DNA of 33,317 nt from Betaproteobacteria bacterium (GTDB taxonomy: Bacteria > Pseudomonadota > Gammaproteobacteria > Burkholderiales > SG8-41). The notes beneath the pieces were generated by a model. It did not search any database. It was given only the letters and a program-made list of their open reading frames with translations, and was not told the DNA's origin. A program made the translations under genes and the position numbers. The stretch spans positions 1-33,317 of the forward strand of contig PLYS01000423.1 in the NCBI GenBank assembly GCA_003153455.1, given 5' to 3'. Positions 4,627 through 27,077 of the stretch are shown in pieces; position 1 is the stretch's first letter; each line of letters opens with the position of its first letter.

Positions 4627-5191
4627 TCAAACGCTGTAACTGCAACGATGCTTGAGCCTGGCTCGGTGCAACTTGTCCGCGAAAGTGCTGGAATCATTTC
4701 CAACTCAAGAGTTGCCTTGCAGACTTTCAGCCGTTCTAGAAAAGCAACTCTAGCTAGCGGAGCGAAATTAACAAAGGTGCATTATGCGCGACAATGGGGC
4801 GGCTTCAAGCACGCCATTGCGGCGCTTCGAATTGATTCGCTAATCCCTCGGAGAAGCGCGGTCGAACGCGGGCGTTGAACGGCCGCTTCGGAGAACGCGC
4901 TATGTCCGGAGTGGGTCGACGGACTGCCCCTGGCGTTTTCGGACAGCAGACGCTCAAATCGACAATCCTGATTTCAACAATCACAGGCCCCCAGTGGCCG
5001 CTGTGGCCGAGAAGCGGCCACTCACGAGGTCCTAGCTGTGTGACCGCACAGGGTCGTTAGCTTCCAGTCACCAATATATTCGATAACTGCCCGCCTGCCT
5101 AAGGTACATGGATTCACGTAGAGCTCAATAGCTGACCGCACGTTCGAGCCAGTACCAAACCCCCATTATCACAACGCCCCGCCTTCCGGCC
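4627..5191. other. Gene-poor stretch with repeat copy B
   Basis: About 560 bases lie between the ParA-like stump and the end of the grdB-like gene. Apart from the inverted repeat copy at 4912-5010, I see no gene. The 88-codon plus-strand frame at 4612 has no family resemblance and lies over the ParA remnant. Confidence 0.45.
4912..5010 (-). repeat. Diverged ~100-bp repeat, copy B (inverted relative to 398-495)
   Basis: Read on the minus strand from 5010, this begins TCGGCCACAGCGGCC and continues through GATTTGAGCGTC and CCGAAAA to GTCGACCC, in the same order and spacing as 398-495 on the plus strand. The two copies flank the ATPase, hypothetical and ParA-remnant stretch in opposite orientation. 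Judged by eye. Confidence 0.45.
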
Positions 5192-6514
5192 TCAGGCCGC
5201 CTGGACCTCGAGCAGGGTTGGAGTAGTCACTGCGGTGCAGAGCGACTGCAGTCCGAGGAGCACTTGCTGGCGCCGCAACGCGCGTTCATGTTCGGGGGTG
5301 AGGTGCGGGTCGCCCAGAACATACGGCACCGCCCTGCCTAAAATAACGCGATAGGCGCCGACGTTCAGTGGGATGGCCGGGATCGCGCTGAAGAAAGCCA
5401 CCGCGATACCAATCCGTTCGATTTCCTTTGCTATCGTTGCGCCGCAACGATTGCAGGTCCCTCAGGTAGCGGTGAGGAGAACGGCGTGGACCCCGTCCTG
5501 CTTCAGGGCGAGGGCCATTTCACGGCCGAAGCGGCGTGCCCGCTCTACCGGTTGCACATTGCCCACGGTGGTGTATAGGTACGGGAGCACGCGGCCCACT
5601 TTGCCCTGTTGCTCTAGCTCGCGCAGGATATCCAGTGGCACCGCGCGTTGCGGGTCCTGCCGGACGTAGCCGTTGTCGTAGCCGCCATGAACGCAAGTCC
5701 ATTCCGCCGGGCTCATTTCCTGCAGGTGGCCGATGGGGTATTTCATCCACTTGGTGGCCCGCCAGGACTCGATCCGATCCGGATTGCCCTGCGGCACCAC
5801 GCCGGAGGTTGTCACCAGCGCGATGGTCGCGTTCTCCAGTCCGGAGAGCGCCGCCGCCGGGCTCACCTGATCGTATTGCGGCAACTGCACCTCGCTCGTA
5901 AACGGCCGCTGCTGCAGGCGGTCAAGCAGCATTTCCACCATGCGCTCGGCGCCGCTCTTGGCGTCGAATTCGTTGCGGCGCATGCCCGTGGGCAGGTAAC
6001 CGTCGACGTCGGCCGGACCGGCGGGTTCGCCGCGGCCAAGCTTCAGCGCAAAAGGCGCCAGGCGCGCCATCACGCCCCCCATGTCCATCGCAGTATTGCC
6101 GGCGGGCAGGATGTAGGTGCGACGCCGGTAGAGATCCACACCCGGATTCTCCGGAAACATTGCAGTCACCGCGGGCAGATTCAGCCGCTCTTTGACCGCG
6201 CTGCACACGGCGCCGCAGGCAACGCCATAGCGCCCGGCTGCAAAGGCAGGCCCTGCCACCACCAGGTCGGGCTTCTGGGCGGCGATCAGTTTCAGCACTT
6301 CCGCCAACGCGTCGTCAGTGTGCTCGTTGAAATAAGAATCACCGCAAATTACCGTCGCCACCACGTCGGCGCTTTCTCCCAGGCACTTTTGCAGGAGCAC
6401 TCCGGGACCCACGGGGCCGGTCTTCACCGTCGGGCGCGCATCGGCCTTGTCTTCTCCGCCGATACCGCCAAAAAACTGGTTCAGGTAATGGATCACTCGC
6501 AATTGGGTCGCCAC
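5192..6514 (-). CDS. GrdB-like selenoprotein, glycine/sarcosine/betaine reductase component B (in-frame UGA = selenocysteine)
   Basis: In clostridia this subunit carries the selenocysteine of protein B, which reductively cleaves the C-N bond of glycine, sarcosine or betaine. The protein of about 440 residues is colinear with GrdB: VIHYLNQFFGGIGGEDKAD at the start, then VGPGVLLQ, ICGDSYF, AGPAFAAGRYGVACG, ENPGVDLY, TTSGVVPQGNPDRI and YTTVGNVQP. The frame meets TGA at 5464-5462 (residue 351) in the context LLTAT-U-GTCNRCG, exactly where clostridial GrdB has TSTUGTCTRCG. It then continues in frame with KEIERIGIAV and YVLGDPHLTPEHE to a TGA at 5192. A bSECIS hairpin follows the UGA. The start is GTG at 6514 behind AGAGGGG; longer frames run into the upstream gene. 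It lies 22 nt downstream of the grdE-like gene. Substrate is unknown, and the rest of the reductase is not in this window. Confidence 0.93.
5429..5455 (-). promoter_or_regulatory. Bacterial SECIS element directing selenocysteine insertion
   Basis: On the minus strand, six bases after the UGA, the mRNA can fold as UGC, A.A mismatch, then ATCGTTGC paired perfectly with GCAACGAT around a three-base loop GGC, and a closing GCA. The first loop G is 19 nt after the UGA. This fits the known bacterial rule of an apical loop about 16-25 nt downstream with a G in its first two positions. The hairpin overlaps codons for the conserved CNRCGA segment, so it also serves as coding sequence. SelB would bind here, but no sel genes lie in this window. 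Confidence 0.85.
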
Positions 6515-6536
6515 TCGAATCCCCTCTGGTTTCGTG

Positions 6537-7817
6537 CTAATAGGCCCGTCCGCGATGCGTGGTGTAACCAAGCTGACAGGTGGCAGCGTAGAGTTGCCGC
6601 AACCCCACCGGGAAGGCTTCGTTGGGCTGCTTCTGAAAGCCGATTTCATAATCGTTGCCGGCCAGGAACCGATCGCCGCCCAAGACCCGGGATACGGCCG
6701 GCATTTGGATGATTTCCTCCTGGTTGCCGACCGAGACGATTGCGGTAGCCTGGGGTACATAGGTCACTAGCGGGAAATCACTGCCGTCGGTATCGGAGTA
6801 CTCGTCCACCCCTAAGACAGTAGCGATACCTGCCTGCTCTACGTGCTGGCAAATGAGCATTTGATCGGCGTACGCGTGGCCGCCGTTGGACATGGTGATC
6901 ACGGCCCCCTGTGCGTCAAGCATTTTCGCGAGCTTGGCCATCTGGGCCGCCTGCCGGTGCTTTTCAATCGCGCTTGGGATCAGGGACCGGCCCAGGATTA
7001 CGCCCACAAAGTTGATATCCTGGCCGTGTCGCCGGTAAAGGGCCTGAATGACCGGCTCGTTCTGGTAGTGATGCGTCGGGCTCCGGTGGCAGGCGATCCA
7101 ATAGTCGGCGCTGATGAGGGCACTGTCGAGCACTTCGTTGGGATGGACCAATGCCGGTGTGCTGGTGACACTCATTCCGTACAGGAAGGTGGTATGCAGT
7201 TCACCTTCGCTCATGGTGGGCATGATGTAGACCACGCGGGGAAGGCTAGCGTCCACCTTACCCAGTTCATAGTTAACCACCGCGTCGGGCTGCAGGTCGC
7301 GGGTCGCCTCGGCCAGGTACTTGGCCACTCGCATGGTGGCTTTGCGGCAAGACGCAGTGGCGTCCGGTATGTGCACGCCGGGAGCGAACGAGAATTGCAA
7401 CACAACGTTGCACATGTCTGAGAAAGGACTATAGGGCGCACCCGGCCCCGACATGTCGATGATCGCTTCTTTCAGGCCCTGGCTGTCCGCAGCGCCGGGA
7501 ATGTCACCGGTGGCGATTACCGCCACGCCTTCAAGCCGATGGGTCACACCGCTGCCAACCTGGTCGGGCGGCGAGATGAACCACGGAAAGGTGGAACCCG
7601 CCGGCTTGTATCTGGGCTCGATAGCGTCGATCACGTGAATGATCCGGGTGGACTCCCCTGAGCCTGCTAACTCCACCGAGACGCCGGTTAGATTGCTGTC
7701 CCCCAGAACCATGGCCGTAACGGCAGCCCGGTCGACAGTGAGAACTCCATTGCGCAGAGCCGTCGTCTCTCCGAAAGATATCTGCGTGACCCGAAAACTG
7801 GCCATTTCCAATCGCAT
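6537..7817 (-). CDS. GrdE/GrdG/GrdI-like subunit of glycine/sarcosine/betaine reductase component B
   Basis: In clostridia this proprotein cleaves itself before a cysteine (Cys242 of GrdE), giving two chains and a pyruvoyl group that binds the amine substrate. The 426-residue product opens MRLEMASFRVTQISFGE with NGVLTV after it, closely matching the MRLELGK...FGE...NGVLYV start of GrdE. It continues with VELAGSGESTRI, VGSGVTHRLEG, IDMSGPGAPY and PVIQALYRRHGQDINFVGVI, all family landmarks. At the processing site it reads SADYWIACHRSP. By my alignment Tyr239 sits where the pyruvoyl Cys should be, and the nearest Cys is residue 243. Cleavage is therefore doubtful. The gene precedes the grdB-like gene by 22 nt and is divergent from three RidA genes. 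Family assignment is firm; activity is not. Confidence 0.9.
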   Translation of the reverse strand: MRLEMASFRVTQISFGETTALRNGVLTVDRAAVTAMVLGDSNLTGVSVELAGSGESTRIIHVIDAIEPRYKPAGSTFPWFISPPDQVGSGVTHRLEGVAVIATGDIPGAADSQGLKEAIIDMSGPGAPYSPFSDMCNVVLQFSFAPGVHIPDATASCRKATMRVAKYLAEATRDLQPDAVVNYELGKVDASLPRVVYIMPTMSEGELHTTFLYGMSVTSTPALVHPNEVLDSALISADYWIACHRSPTHHYQNEPVIQALYRRHGQDINFVGVILGRSLIPSAIEKHRQAAQMAKLAKMLDAQGAVITMSNGGHAYADQMLICQHVEQAGIATVLGVDEYSDTDGSDFPLVTYVPQATAIVSVGNQEEIIQMPAVSRVLGGDRFLAGNDYEIGFQKQPNEAFPVGLRQLYAATCQLGYTTHRGRAY

Positions 7818-7930
7818 TGCCGTTTACCTTTCGGTCGATGCTCGTGCCGAGCTGATGACGGAACGATGTTGCGTTATTTCAAATGGTATCATGTCCGAAA
7901 CCGAAAAACGAAGCGATACCGGGAGATTCG
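7818..7930. promoter_or_regulatory. Divergent promoter region between grdEB-like and ridA-like operons
   Basis: These 113 bases separate two divergent operons and must hold promoters for both, unless the RidA genes read from farther away. The AT-richest part lies around 7873-7892 (TTGCGTTATTTCAAATGGTA). I cannot pick confident -35/-10 pairs. The first RidA gene has GGGAGA just before its ATG; the grdE-like gene has a weaker AAAGGT. Confidence 0.35.
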
Positions 7931-8320
7931 ATGCGCGAAGTCATCACGGCACCGCTGCCCGGGCTCGATCTGCGGCAGCACTACGGACATTACCAGTCGC
8001 CGGCGATCCGCGCCGGCGGGCTCATCTTCTGCTCCGGCATGATCCCGGTGGACCCACAAACCGGTGAGCGGCAGCACGGCACGCTGACCAGCGAGGCGCA
8101 TGTCATCTTTGGGAACCTGAAGCTTCTGCTCGAGTCGGCCGGGTCGTCGCTCGACCGGCTGGTGCAGGTGCATGCGCTGATCTATGACAGCATCGAGTAC
8201 GATGTGCTCAACCGTGTCTACCGGCAGTACGTGGCGAACGGCCCGCCCGCGCGCACCGTATGGACCGCGCAGATCGAAGCTGGGTTCAAGGTGCAGCTCG
8301 ATGTGGTGGCCGCCGCATGA
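7931..8320 (+). CDS. RidA/YjgF/YER057c/UK114-family protein (copy 1)
   Basis: RidA proteins are small trimers that hydrolyse reactive enamines/imines to keto acids or act in related chemistry in catabolic pathways. The 129-residue product shows the fold's signature segments: GGLIFCSGMIPVDPQTGE, then NLKLLLESAGSSLDRLVQVH and NGPPARTVWTAQ. The arginine of PARTV corresponds to the carboxylate-binding Arg of RidA (Arg105 in E. coli). The usual late glutamate is replaced (VQLDVVAAA). I chose ATG at 7931 because it follows GGGAGATTCG and begins at the family start; an upstream in-frame start at 7883 adds an unlikely leader. It is the first of three tandem RidA genes facing away from the grdEB-like pair. 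Confidence 0.9.
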   Translation: MREVITAPLPGLDLRQHYGHYQSPAIRAGGLIFCSGMIPVDPQTGERQHGTLTSEAHVIFGNLKLLLESAGSSLDRLVQVHALIYDSIEYDVLNRVYRQYVANGPPARTVWTAQIEAGFKVQLDVVAAA

Positions 8321-8339
8321 TGTGCCCGCAGGATATGCC

Positions 8340-8738
8340 ATGAGCTTGCAGCGTGAAGTGATTGCTCCGCCTCTGCCAGGGCTGGATGCGGGGCGCAGCT
8401 TCGATCAGCAGGTGTCGATGGTGGTGCGGGGCGGCGAGTTTCTGTTCGTTTCCGGCCTGACCGCCGTCGATCCGAAGACCGGTGAGCGAATGCTAGGCAC
8501 CACGATGAGCGAGACCCACCAGATCCTCGCAAATCTCAAGCTGATGCTGGAGGCAGCGGGTTCCTCACTCGACAAGGTCGTGAAGGTAAACGTGCTGCTG
8601 CACAGCATGCTGGAGGCGCCGAATATAAACGAGGTATTTTCCCGCTGCTTCCCCGAACCGCCCCCCGCACGCACCGTATGCGGTGCGCGCCTGCCCGACG
8701 GCGTGAGGGTCATGATCGAATGCACCGCATTGGCGTGA
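8340..8738 (+). CDS. RidA-family protein (copy 2)
   Basis: This 132-residue protein starts MSLQREVIAPPLPGL, similar to the start of copy 1. It contains GEFLFVSGLTAVDPKTGE, NLKLMLEAAGSSLDKVVKVN and PPARTVCGARLPDG, followed by MIECTALA. Both the carboxylate-binding Arg and the late Glu of classical RidA enzymes are present. The start at 8340 lies 19 nt after copy 1 stops. The longer frame from 8184 overlaps copy 1 and is a shadow. It probably works with copies 1 and 3, either as separate enzymes or as mixed trimers. Confidence 0.9.
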   Translation: MSLQREVIAPPLPGLDAGRSFDQQVSMVVRGGEFLFVSGLTAVDPKTGERMLGTTMSETHQILANLKLMLEAAGSSLDKVVKVNVLLHSMLEAPNINEVFSRCFPEPPPARTVCGARLPDGVRVMIECTALA

Positions 8739-8739
8739 A

Positions 8740-9150
8740 ATGATGACAGAGAAGCTTGCACGTTCGGCCATCCAGCCGAAGAACCCGCTGCTCAATGTCT
8801 CCCGCAGCGCTAACCTGCCACACGTACCCGGCATCCGCGTCGGCGACTACCTATTTCTCTCAGGAATGGGCCCGATCGATCCGCGCACGGGCGGGCGCAA
8901 TCATGGGCCGATAGCCGAGCAGATCCGCACGACCCTGAACAATATAAAGCACATACTGGAATTCGCTGGCTCGTCGCTGGAGCGAGTCGTGAGAGTGCAT
9001 GTGGTGCTGGCGGATATCTCGCACATGGACGAGATGGACCGGGTCTATCGCGAATTCTTCCCCGTCAATCCACCGGCGCGCACTGCGTGGTCGATGCAGC
9101 TTCGGTTCGGAAACGGCTGCGAGATCGAGTGCGTGGCGCTCGTGGACTGA
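8740..9150 (+). CDS. RidA-family protein (copy 3)
   Basis: This 136-residue RidA-family protein starts one base after the stop of copy 2, so translation is likely coupled. Landmarks are GDYLFLSGMGPIDPRTGG, TLNNIKHILEFAGSSLERVV and NPPARTAWSMQL with the conserved Arg, then CEIECVALVD with the late Glu. It has a longer N-terminus (AIQPKNPLLNVSRSANLPHV) than its neighbours and is the most divergent of the three. A second ATG follows at 8743. Confidence 0.9.
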   Translation: MMTEKLARSAIQPKNPLLNVSRSANLPHVPGIRVGDYLFLSGMGPIDPRTGGRNHGPIAEQIRTTLNNIKHILEFAGSSLERVVRVHVVLADISHMDEMDRVYREFFPVNPPARTAWSMQLRFGNGCEIECVALVD

Positions 9151-25880: not shown

Positions 25881-27077
25881 TCAGCCGACCTGTATCAATT
25901 CGTCGTTGCTACAGATGTTCCCCGTAATTGCATCGAAGCCGTCCTTCGTGATCACGTACATATCCTCGACGTGGAAACCCATTTCTCCGGGAATCATATA
26001 CAGTGGCTCCATCGTGAATGTGATATTCGGCACGAAGATGATGTCCTTCGTCTCGGTCAGGTAGGGTTCTTCGTGAATGGTCTGACCTATGCCATGGCCG
26101 AGGAATTTGAGTGTCGGATCGATATTGTTTTCCTGACATATCCTGACGTAGGCCCTATAGACGTCGGCGACCGCTATACCGGGCTTCAGCATCGTTTTGC
26201 AGACCTCTCTCGCCCGGATAAGCACTGCCCAAATACTTCTCTGGCGATCGGAGGGTTTCCCGACAACTGCAGTACGGGTCACGTTCGAGCGATAGTTATC
26301 AAGATCCCCAAGGATTTCGATACGAATAAGATCGCCAGCCTCTATCTTCTTAGACGTGGTGCCGCAGTTCGTAATGGAGCTATTGACACCCGAACCCACC
26401 CGGTACTTGAAGTTCGACGATCCGCCCGCGATCATCTGATCGACGAGCTGACGCGCAACATCAATCTCGGTCATTCCAACGCGGATCTTCTTTAGGACAT
26501 CGTGTATAACCCGCTCGCTCAACGTGCCTACGCGACGCAGCGTACTTACCTCCTCGTCGCTCTTGATCATGCGGACGCGAAAGAAAAGGTCCGCACATCC
26601 TTCGAACGTGGCCAAATGCAAGCGCTTCCTGAGCTGAATGAAATCCTTTGCCGGCATGAAGTCGAGCTCGATCGCAATGCGGCCTTTTTCGACGCCGGCT
26701 TCGATTAGCGCATCGGCCAGCACGTTCGCCGGGTCGTCGACGAACTGGTTGTATGTGCGTATATCCTTGAACCGCGACCGTGCTCTGGCTTGAAGCTCTT
26801 CTACGTTTACCACGATCTGCGTCGCAAAAGTGTCACCCGCCAGGATTACGATGGTCCGGCGAAACCGATTCGTCAGGTGGCTCGGTACGAGGAAACCAGC
26901 GGCGTAGGTAACGTTGTCCTGCGACAGCGCGACTAGTGCGTCATAACCACCCTCTTTCATGGCATTGCGAAGACGCCGAAGCGTCTCGTGTTCTCCTTGA
27001 GCGGAGACTGCCCTGACGGCGGTGGAGTCACGCGCCAAAGACAATACAGACTCGGCCGATCCTATTGCTTTTCCCAT
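25881..27077 (-). CDS. M24-family (creatinase/Xaa-Pro aminopeptidase-like) protein with altered metal ligands
   Basis: The 398-residue product has a creatinase N-terminal domain (DALVALSQDNVTYAAGFLVP) and a pita-bread C-terminal domain. HGIGQTIHEEPYL, FTMEPLY and FHVEDMYVIT supply the family His and two Glu residues. The two usual metal aspartates look replaced: the segment reads LIRIEILGDLDNYRSNVTRT, with Glu for the first Asp and Asn for the second (normally SDxTRT). Metallopeptidase activity is therefore doubtful. A metal-independent creatinase-like C-N hydrolase is a reasonable alternative. It is the first gene of the minus-strand cluster, with AAGGAG 8 nt before the ATG. Confidence 0.88.
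   Translation of the reverse strand: MGKAIGSAESVLSLARDSTAVRAVSAQGEHETLRRLRNAMKEGGYDALVALSQDNVTYAAGFLVPSHLTNRFRRTIVILAGDTFATQIVVNVEELQARARSRFKDIRTYNQFVDDPANVLADALIEAGVEKGRIAIELDFMPAKDFIQLRKRLHLATFEGCADLFFRVRMIKSDEEVSTLRRVGTLSERVIHDVLKKIRVGMTEIDVARQLVDQMIAGGSSNFKYRVGSGVNSSITNCGTTSKKIEAGDLIRIEILGDLDNYRSNVTRTAVVGKPSDRQRSIWAVLIRAREVCKTMLKPGIAVADVYRAYVRICQENNIDPTLKFLGHGIGQTIHEEPYLTETKDIIFVPNITFTMEPLYMIPGEMGFHVEDMYVITKDGFDAITGNICSNDELIQVG

Follow-up and report, generated by a model that had tools for sequence, protein, structure and literature searches.

An in-frame UGA at positions 5464-5462, on the minus strand of a 33,317-nucleotide stretch of betaproteobacterial DNA (the window; contig PLYS01000423.1 of assembly GCA_003153455.1), is very probably decoded as selenocysteine (Sec) by the Sel machinery of the same genome by way of the hairpin that follows it. 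The product would be a full-length GrdB-type selenoprotein that pairs with a GrdE-like protein as protein B, a reading to which we give a probability of about 0.93. In glycine, sarcosine and betaine reductases a GrdB/GrdE pair serves as the substrate-specific 'protein B', and most of what is known of Sec-GrdB chemistry comes from anaerobes. The frame, its conservation, the covarying hairpin, the sel genes and the GrdE partner are established at the level of sequence. Gene finders taking UGA as a stop would terminate it at codon 350 and miss its catalytic residue.

The window corresponds to contig C91 of a draft genome (G000) of 6.69 Mb in 666 contigs, 88.6% complete with 5.4% contamination. 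Four features are central.

5192 to 6514, minus strand: grdB-like gene of 440 codons with the putative Sec codon at 351, assigned from its frame and matches to TIGR01918, NF040794 and PF07355
5462 to 5464, minus strand: UGA probably read as Sec (residue 351), from the frame and from TGA in 13 of 13 full-length family copies
5433 to 5451, minus strand: bSECIS-type hairpin, AUCGUUGC-GGC-GCAACGAU, from its fold, compensatory changes and chance controls
6537 to 7817, minus strand: grdE-like gene (protein B alpha subunit) of 426 aa, from a PF09338 match of 391 bits and alignments

The grdB-like frame runs from a GTG start at 6514, with GAGGGG just before it, to a final TGA at 5194-5192. Protein comparisons used the full 440-codon reading with C put in place of Sec. 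As the first-pass annotation had proposed, the UGA splits a single GrdB-colinear gene: the match to TIGR01918 (GrdB family; 497 bits, cut-off 65.45) covers residues 6-435 and spans both sides. The best NCBIfam profile, NF040794 (sarcosine GrdF; 504 bits, under its cut-off of 800), also crosses the UGA, and the PF07355 model (466 bits, cut-off 22) stops just short of it. All three profiles match, and the label GrdB-like was correct. The site reads TAT-U-GTCNRCGAT, the motif that had been given for it, and is encoded with the in-frame UGA; U351-GTC-NRC fits UxxCxxC. The expected two-gene split by standard calling is present in the list of open reading frames, as an upstream ORF ending at 5462 and a 69-aa ORF at 5192-5401. 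Two small ORFs left of grdB had no PHROG match. No solved structure related by sequence to the window protein was found with phmmer (E up to 0.01), and an AlphaFold model built from three close sequences had a mean pLDDT of 44.9 and was set aside.

The hairpin consists of eight Watson-Crick pairs and an apical GGC loop at 5443-5441. The stem starts 11 nt downstream of the UGA, from which the loop is separated by 18 nt. The 8-bp perfect stem and GGC loop described earlier were thus recovered, but the distance of 19 nt downstream given with them is that of the first base of the loop rather than of the stem. The bSECIS model, as quoted in PMC13188914, has a loop of 3-9 nt, a stem of 4-16 bp and a distance of 16-37 nt from the UGA, together with a G within the first two loop positions and an MFE of at most -7.5 kcal/mol. 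Applied by hand and script, these lax criteria accommodate the 3-nt GGC loop, 8 bp, 18 nt and -14.5 kcal/mol found here. The folding z-score is only -1.47.

That z-score was obtained against dinucleotide shuffles, 17/200 of which folded equally well, and 249 of 5000 synonymous recodings of the same peptide were as stable as the native sequence. Folding energy alone is weak evidence for the hairpin. A perfect stem of at least 8 pairs, closed by a loop of 3-14 nt and placed as in a bSECIS, occurred in 260 of 100,000 synonymous recodings; the same test on the TGA triplets of both strands of the window was passed by 4/963, the grdB UGA included. The 45 nt past the terminal UGA of grdB fold at -12.9 kcal/mol, with a mostly G-U stem that is similarly located; taken by themselves, the lax published criteria therefore cannot separate the two grdB UGAs. 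No perfect Watson-Crick stem longer than 2 bp occurs in the SECIS position after the terminal UGA. The stronger support for the putative hairpin is comparative (conservation and covariation) rather than energetic.

The nearest record, JACPTJ010000552.1, is a Betaproteobacteria MAG with a protein 93% identical to that of the window, followed by JADZGE010000042.1, a Burkholderiales MAG (84%). The genomes of these relatives carry paired labels, G399/G430 and G400/G450, respectively. A peptide-pattern search gave two loci, and whole-genome searches were therefore used instead. In a profile search of 74 genomes of the window organism's family, 13 full-length GrdB copies were found in four: two in G000, five in G430, five in G450 and one in G293. 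Each of the 13 contains one TGA, which falls in the Sec column when the copies are aligned. The UGA and a hairpin are present also in three reference genes, namely Peptoclostridium acidaminophilum GrdF and genes from Photobacterium and E. gilvus. With UGA in 12 other copies, a consensus error at this position is unlikely. Among the loci aligned across the site, which took in part of the UGA-less matches, the only sense codons at the Sec position were those for Cys (TGC or TGT), in four distant PrdB-like proteins (L040, L043, L047 and L049).

The 13 family sequences and the three references were used for a stem alignment of 16 sequences, 15 of them distinct. Seven of the eight pairs are present in 14 or more of the 15. 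The outermost A-U pair is formed in 3/15, leaving a conserved element of 7 bp, or 6 in Photobacterium. Changes on both sides were observed at three of the eight pairs (UA/GC/AU, UA/CG and UA/AU). The covariation score of the stem was 0.326 compared with 0.097 for shuffled alignments; no shuffle out of 500 scored as high, and slid registers reached at most 0.098. The number of double-change pairs and the further pair types showed no excess over shuffles (243/500 and 296/500). In four GrdB paralogs a downstream Cys codon, UGC, is changed to Ser AGC and the opposite Ala codon, GCA, to GCU, which keeps the pair; the hairpin is thus preserved in these Cys-to-Ser paralogs though the protein sequence differs. 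The first-pass annotation had named sense codons other than Cys or Sec in relatives, with no conservation of the hairpin, as grounds for abandoning its reading. Instead, UGA was found in the 13 relatives and three references, with a covarying stem.

Paralogs with the UxxCxxC cysteines replaced (UGTGTRSG, UGSGTRSG) are located as follows.

L084, 10474-11778
L084, 16996-18291
L121, 6900-8204
L122, 7027-8322

These Cys-replaced paralogs, in which compensatory change maintains the hairpin, recall FarB as it is described in PMC10838667.

Over the 89 codons downstream of the UGA, the window gene has 15 synonymous and 3 replacement differences from the G430 orthologue, and 36 and 12 from that of G450. 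The corresponding dN values are 0.016 and 0.073 and the dS values 0.26 and 1.07. With dN/dS about 0.06-0.07, this part of the gene is, by this measure, under purifying selection.

In a phylogenetic tree, the window GrdB and its G430 and G450 orthologues form a clade of their own (100/100), the deep order being unsettled. Similarity of the window to G430 is confined to 5154-7850, where the G430 contig offers only 122 and 390 flank bases, and similarity to G450 to 5172-7818. As similarity ends near the grdEB pair, the neighbours give no stable functional hint. Two adjacent genes of the L-PSP/RidA family (PF01042) lie at 8184-9150 on the plus strand, divergent from grdE. Farther along, between 10255 and 24649, four genes for TctC-type solute-binding proteins (10255, 14694, 19384 and 23663) are interspersed with genes for molybdenum hydroxylase, luciferase-like oxidoreductase and amidohydrolase; this region is perhaps a catabolic island.

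A search for sel genes in the organism's own genome, recommended with the original proposal, was positive even in the draft, with selB, tRNA-Sec, selD and a 3' fragment of selA all present. Contig C25 carries tRNA-Sec (74.5 bits; anticodon TCA, UCA in the RNA) and SelB (441 bits), and at its edge, directly before selB, a 36-position C-terminal fragment of SelA. SelD is on contig C219 (426 bits) and has an in-frame UGA of its own, in HGGGUGCK. A survey of 37 hand-picked genomes compared the occurrence of SelB with that of GrdB/PrdB-like genes. Where such a gene bears a UGA, SelB exceeded its cut-off in 17 of 18 genomes, the one exception (G144) having a SelB-like fragment at a contig edge; where the matches are UGA-less, it did so in 2/9 (Fisher p 0.0003, relatedness not corrected). 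Nine of ten relatives picked for having no GrdB-type match also had SelB above cut-off; its occurrence is therefore not tied to grdB in particular and points to other uses in the family.

Given UGA in 13/13 copies, a covarying stem and sel genes in G000, Sec insertion at residue 351 is very likely. Were the UGA an ordinary stop, GrdB would be truncated or decaying and the 69-aa ORF would be debris. The modest folding z-score is compatible with such a stop, as is the normal use of UGA for termination here: it ends grdB itself and 12 of the 22 Pfam-matched window genes that were tallied, two more Pfam-matched ORFs having been left out. Nevertheless, an ordinary stop is highly improbable when the codon is kept in all family copies and in three reference GrdB-type genes, the 89 codons beyond it are under purifying selection and the hairpin covaries; moreover, the terminal UGA is followed by a stable fold with G-U pairs but only a 2-bp Watson-Crick stem. 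Reassignment of UGA (e.g. to Trp) or near-cognate readthrough has nothing in its favor beyond the open frame. The same tally of UGA stops speaks against it, as do a dedicated tRNA-Sec and SelB in the genome and the choice of Cys as the sense codon in aligned distant relatives, and we regard it as barely credible.

The substrate function of the pair is less certain than Sec insertion. The grdE-like gene adjoins grdB, 22 nt upstream. At the NC-x3-C site, the window GrdE has Tyr at the first Cys position and retains the second (C243), and thus fails the two-cysteine test for a pyruvoyl-forming GrdE. According to passages of PMC10838667, the two cysteines serve autocatalytic pyruvoyl formation, and betaine GrdI and FarE are without them. 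NC-x3-C was intact in four GrdE-type partners beside motif-matching genes, and two betaine-type partners had a single, shifted Cys. In an alignment covering 12 of the 13 family pairs, only the second Cys was present in GrdE of the window and its two orthologues, and neither Cys in the other nine Burkholderiales-type partners. The window GrdE, like betaine GrdI and FarE, has no intact cysteine pair, and this pattern favors, with moderate confidence, a substrate that would have no need of a Schiff base. The FarE model itself gave 143 bits for the window GrdE, with a cut-off of 675.

Substrate motifs published in PMC9751293 were run on the 13 family copies and six reference genes. None of the 13, the window gene included, contained the published GrdB or GrdF motif. 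Both GrdF genes annotated in P. acidaminophilum have the GrdF motif. The GrdB (glycine) motif was matched by two unannotated genes, from Photobacterium and A. noterae, a control that is not independent of the motif, and neither motif was matched by betaine GrdH or by its relative in A. noterae. The window GrdB thus fails the tests for sarcosine GrdF, both by motif and by its NF040794 score.

Three genomes, G293, G399 and G400, have GrdA with CFVU as well as GrdC. No match to either was obtained in G000, a draft 88.6% complete. As GrdA, GrdE, GrdB and GrdC lie together on one 36-kb contig (C93) of G399, a single missing contig could explain the gap. A GrdA-less enzyme was considered after a first G000 search that had no control matches; the idea was weakened by GrdA in the three relatives and by positive controls. 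GrdD was above cut-off in none of the four Burkholderiales-type draft genomes (G293, 98% complete; the others, 85-89%), compared with about 550 bits in two control records, and G293 gave one partial match of 20.7 bits. These searches are suggestive of an absence of GrdD from the Burkholderiales-type genomes; if GrdD is truly absent, the acyl group on GrdC must exit by another route. No simple stem comparable to that of grdB was seen after the GrdA UGA in the three relatives or in the GrdA genes of plasmid records, and a weak stem at that UGA therefore says little.

Several roles for the pair can be weighed against these data. A genuine glycine or sarcosine reductase that supplies acetyl-phosphate formation in the clostridial manner would agree with sarcosine GrdF as the best NCBIfam profile and with GrdA and GrdC in three relatives. 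It is unlikely, because the profile score is well short of cut-off, neither motif fits although both annotated GrdF controls fit theirs, GrdE has lost its first Cys, and GrdD is below cut-off in 4/4 genomes apart from one weak partial match. More plausible, though somewhat short of an even chance, is a protein B that acts on a quaternary or non-amine substrate (resembling betaine, or with a C-halogen bond as in FarEB) and shares a common GrdA and GrdC. The lost first Cys of GrdE, matched in betaine GrdI and FarE, is consistent with such a substrate, and so are the Ser or Gly residues replacing UxxCxxC cysteines in the relatives' paralogs, FarB being described in PMC10838667 as without CxxC, and the multiple paralogs per genome. 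The low score against the FarE model, the cysteines retained in the window GrdB and a gene context that points to no substrate weigh on the other side.

Tentatively, the Burkholderiales-type lineage may possess a GrdD-less Sec reductase in which several Sec-GrdB/GrdE pairs of new specificity feed a Sec-GrdA and a GrdC and the acyl group leaves GrdC by an exit other than GrdD-made acetyl phosphate, for example to CoA. Genomes with up to five GrdB copies and GrdE partners that, where examined, have no intact pyruvoyl-site cysteine pair form the background to this proposal. If true, a GrdD-less reductase would represent carbon-scavenging or electron-accepting glycine-reductase chemistry outside Stickland fermentation. 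The presence of 13 Sec-GrdB copies with no GrdD above cut-off leads to testable questions: which substrate is reduced, and where the acyl group goes.

A creatine-to-sarcosine route was suggested by an M24/creatinase-fold gene in the window (25881-27077) and an M24 gene near P. acidaminophilum grdF. It was ruled out, as the two M24 proteins are only 26% identical and that of the window matches proline dipeptidases (7e-35) better than it does creatine amidinohydrolase 1chm (2e-16).

In the preferred reading, three steps are inferred: insertion of Sec in the cell, formation of the complex and the chemistry. The hairpin just past the UGA is predicted to direct Sec decoding of 5464-5462 by the Sel machinery, yielding a full-length GrdB-type selenoprotein of about 47 kDa. 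Together with the GrdE-like protein it would make up a 'protein B' of the glycine/sarcosine/betaine-reductase type, to which the substrate binds. The Sec selenolate would attack the C-X bond of the substrate, where the leaving group X is of amine type or of another kind, and the carboxyalkyl group thus bound to Se would be handed to the Sec protein GrdA and thence to GrdC.

Other loci with in-frame UGA codons were noticed. A second GrdB-type gene of G000 (C117:1668-2978; L054) has a UGA, its own GrdE-type partner and the site UGTSTRCG, and a TctC gene follows it. At C157:11682-11876 on the minus strand of G000 (L128), a 572-aa reading contains an in-frame UGA (NGAUGTCAPA) with a G-C-rich hairpin of 8 bp after it. 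Its N-terminus belongs to the UGSC family (PF24696, 82.5 bits; NF041046, 56.8 bits, below the cut-off of 125), the long C-terminal part fused to this domain has no Pfam match, and five further genomes of the family have homologues. PMC2398784 mentions UGSC fusions, so L128 is of a known kind. Most profile-search matches were shorter PrdB-like relatives, nearly all with UGA; in L058, L062, L068 and others the open frame has 412-426 codons and includes a UPNCTCAV site, with a UGA and a hairpin.

Glycine reductase is known mainly from anaerobes, as stated in PMC10059138. A 2006 survey (PMC1794560) lists Betaproteobacteria with a single selenoprotein family, FdhA according to its discussion. PMC5029168 reports 261 GrdB proteins from 146 organisms, and the survey in PMC9751293 was filtered by a motif that the 13 family copies fail. 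A limited search of the open literature, covering titles, the opening of abstracts and selected passages, found no earlier report of Sec-GrdB in Betaproteobacteria or Burkholderiales. The Sec site is of a known kind; the GrdD-less arrangement may be a variant.

PrdB-like UPxCT candidates from the same order resemble the window gene in their homology to the C-terminal half of GrdB and in having a UGA and hairpin; they differ in frames of 412-426 codons (three examined), in giving no GrdB N-terminal match (one scanned) and in their motif. Photobacterium sp. DA100 offers another proteobacterial GrdB-type gene with an in-frame UGA, accompanied by GrdE, GrdA and GrdC. Passages of PMC10059138 report grd and sel genes in Shewanella sp. 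MTB7 and describe gammaproteobacterial glycine reductase operons with GrdD. Unlike the window's relatives, the Photobacterium and Shewanella sets include GrdD, and the Photobacterium protein fits the glycine motif and is only 40% identical. The fluoroacetate reductase pair FarB/FarE of Cloacibacillus, as presented in PMC10838667, is likewise an extra substrate-specific protein-B pair with a partner devoid of the cysteine pair, and the prediction there is that it supplies a shared GrdA and GrdC. It differs from the window pair in that the window GrdE scores far below the FarE cut-off and the window GrdB retains UxxCxxC. P. acidaminophilum GrdF/GrdG differs in that the window GrdB fails the GrdF motif, the window GrdE is without the first Cys and GrdD is not above cut-off in the window's relatives. 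Nevertheless, the window GrdB is 46% identical to GrdF end to end, and the two genes share a U-GTC-x-RCG site and a hairpin at the same place, with GrdG immediately upstream in P. acidaminophilum.
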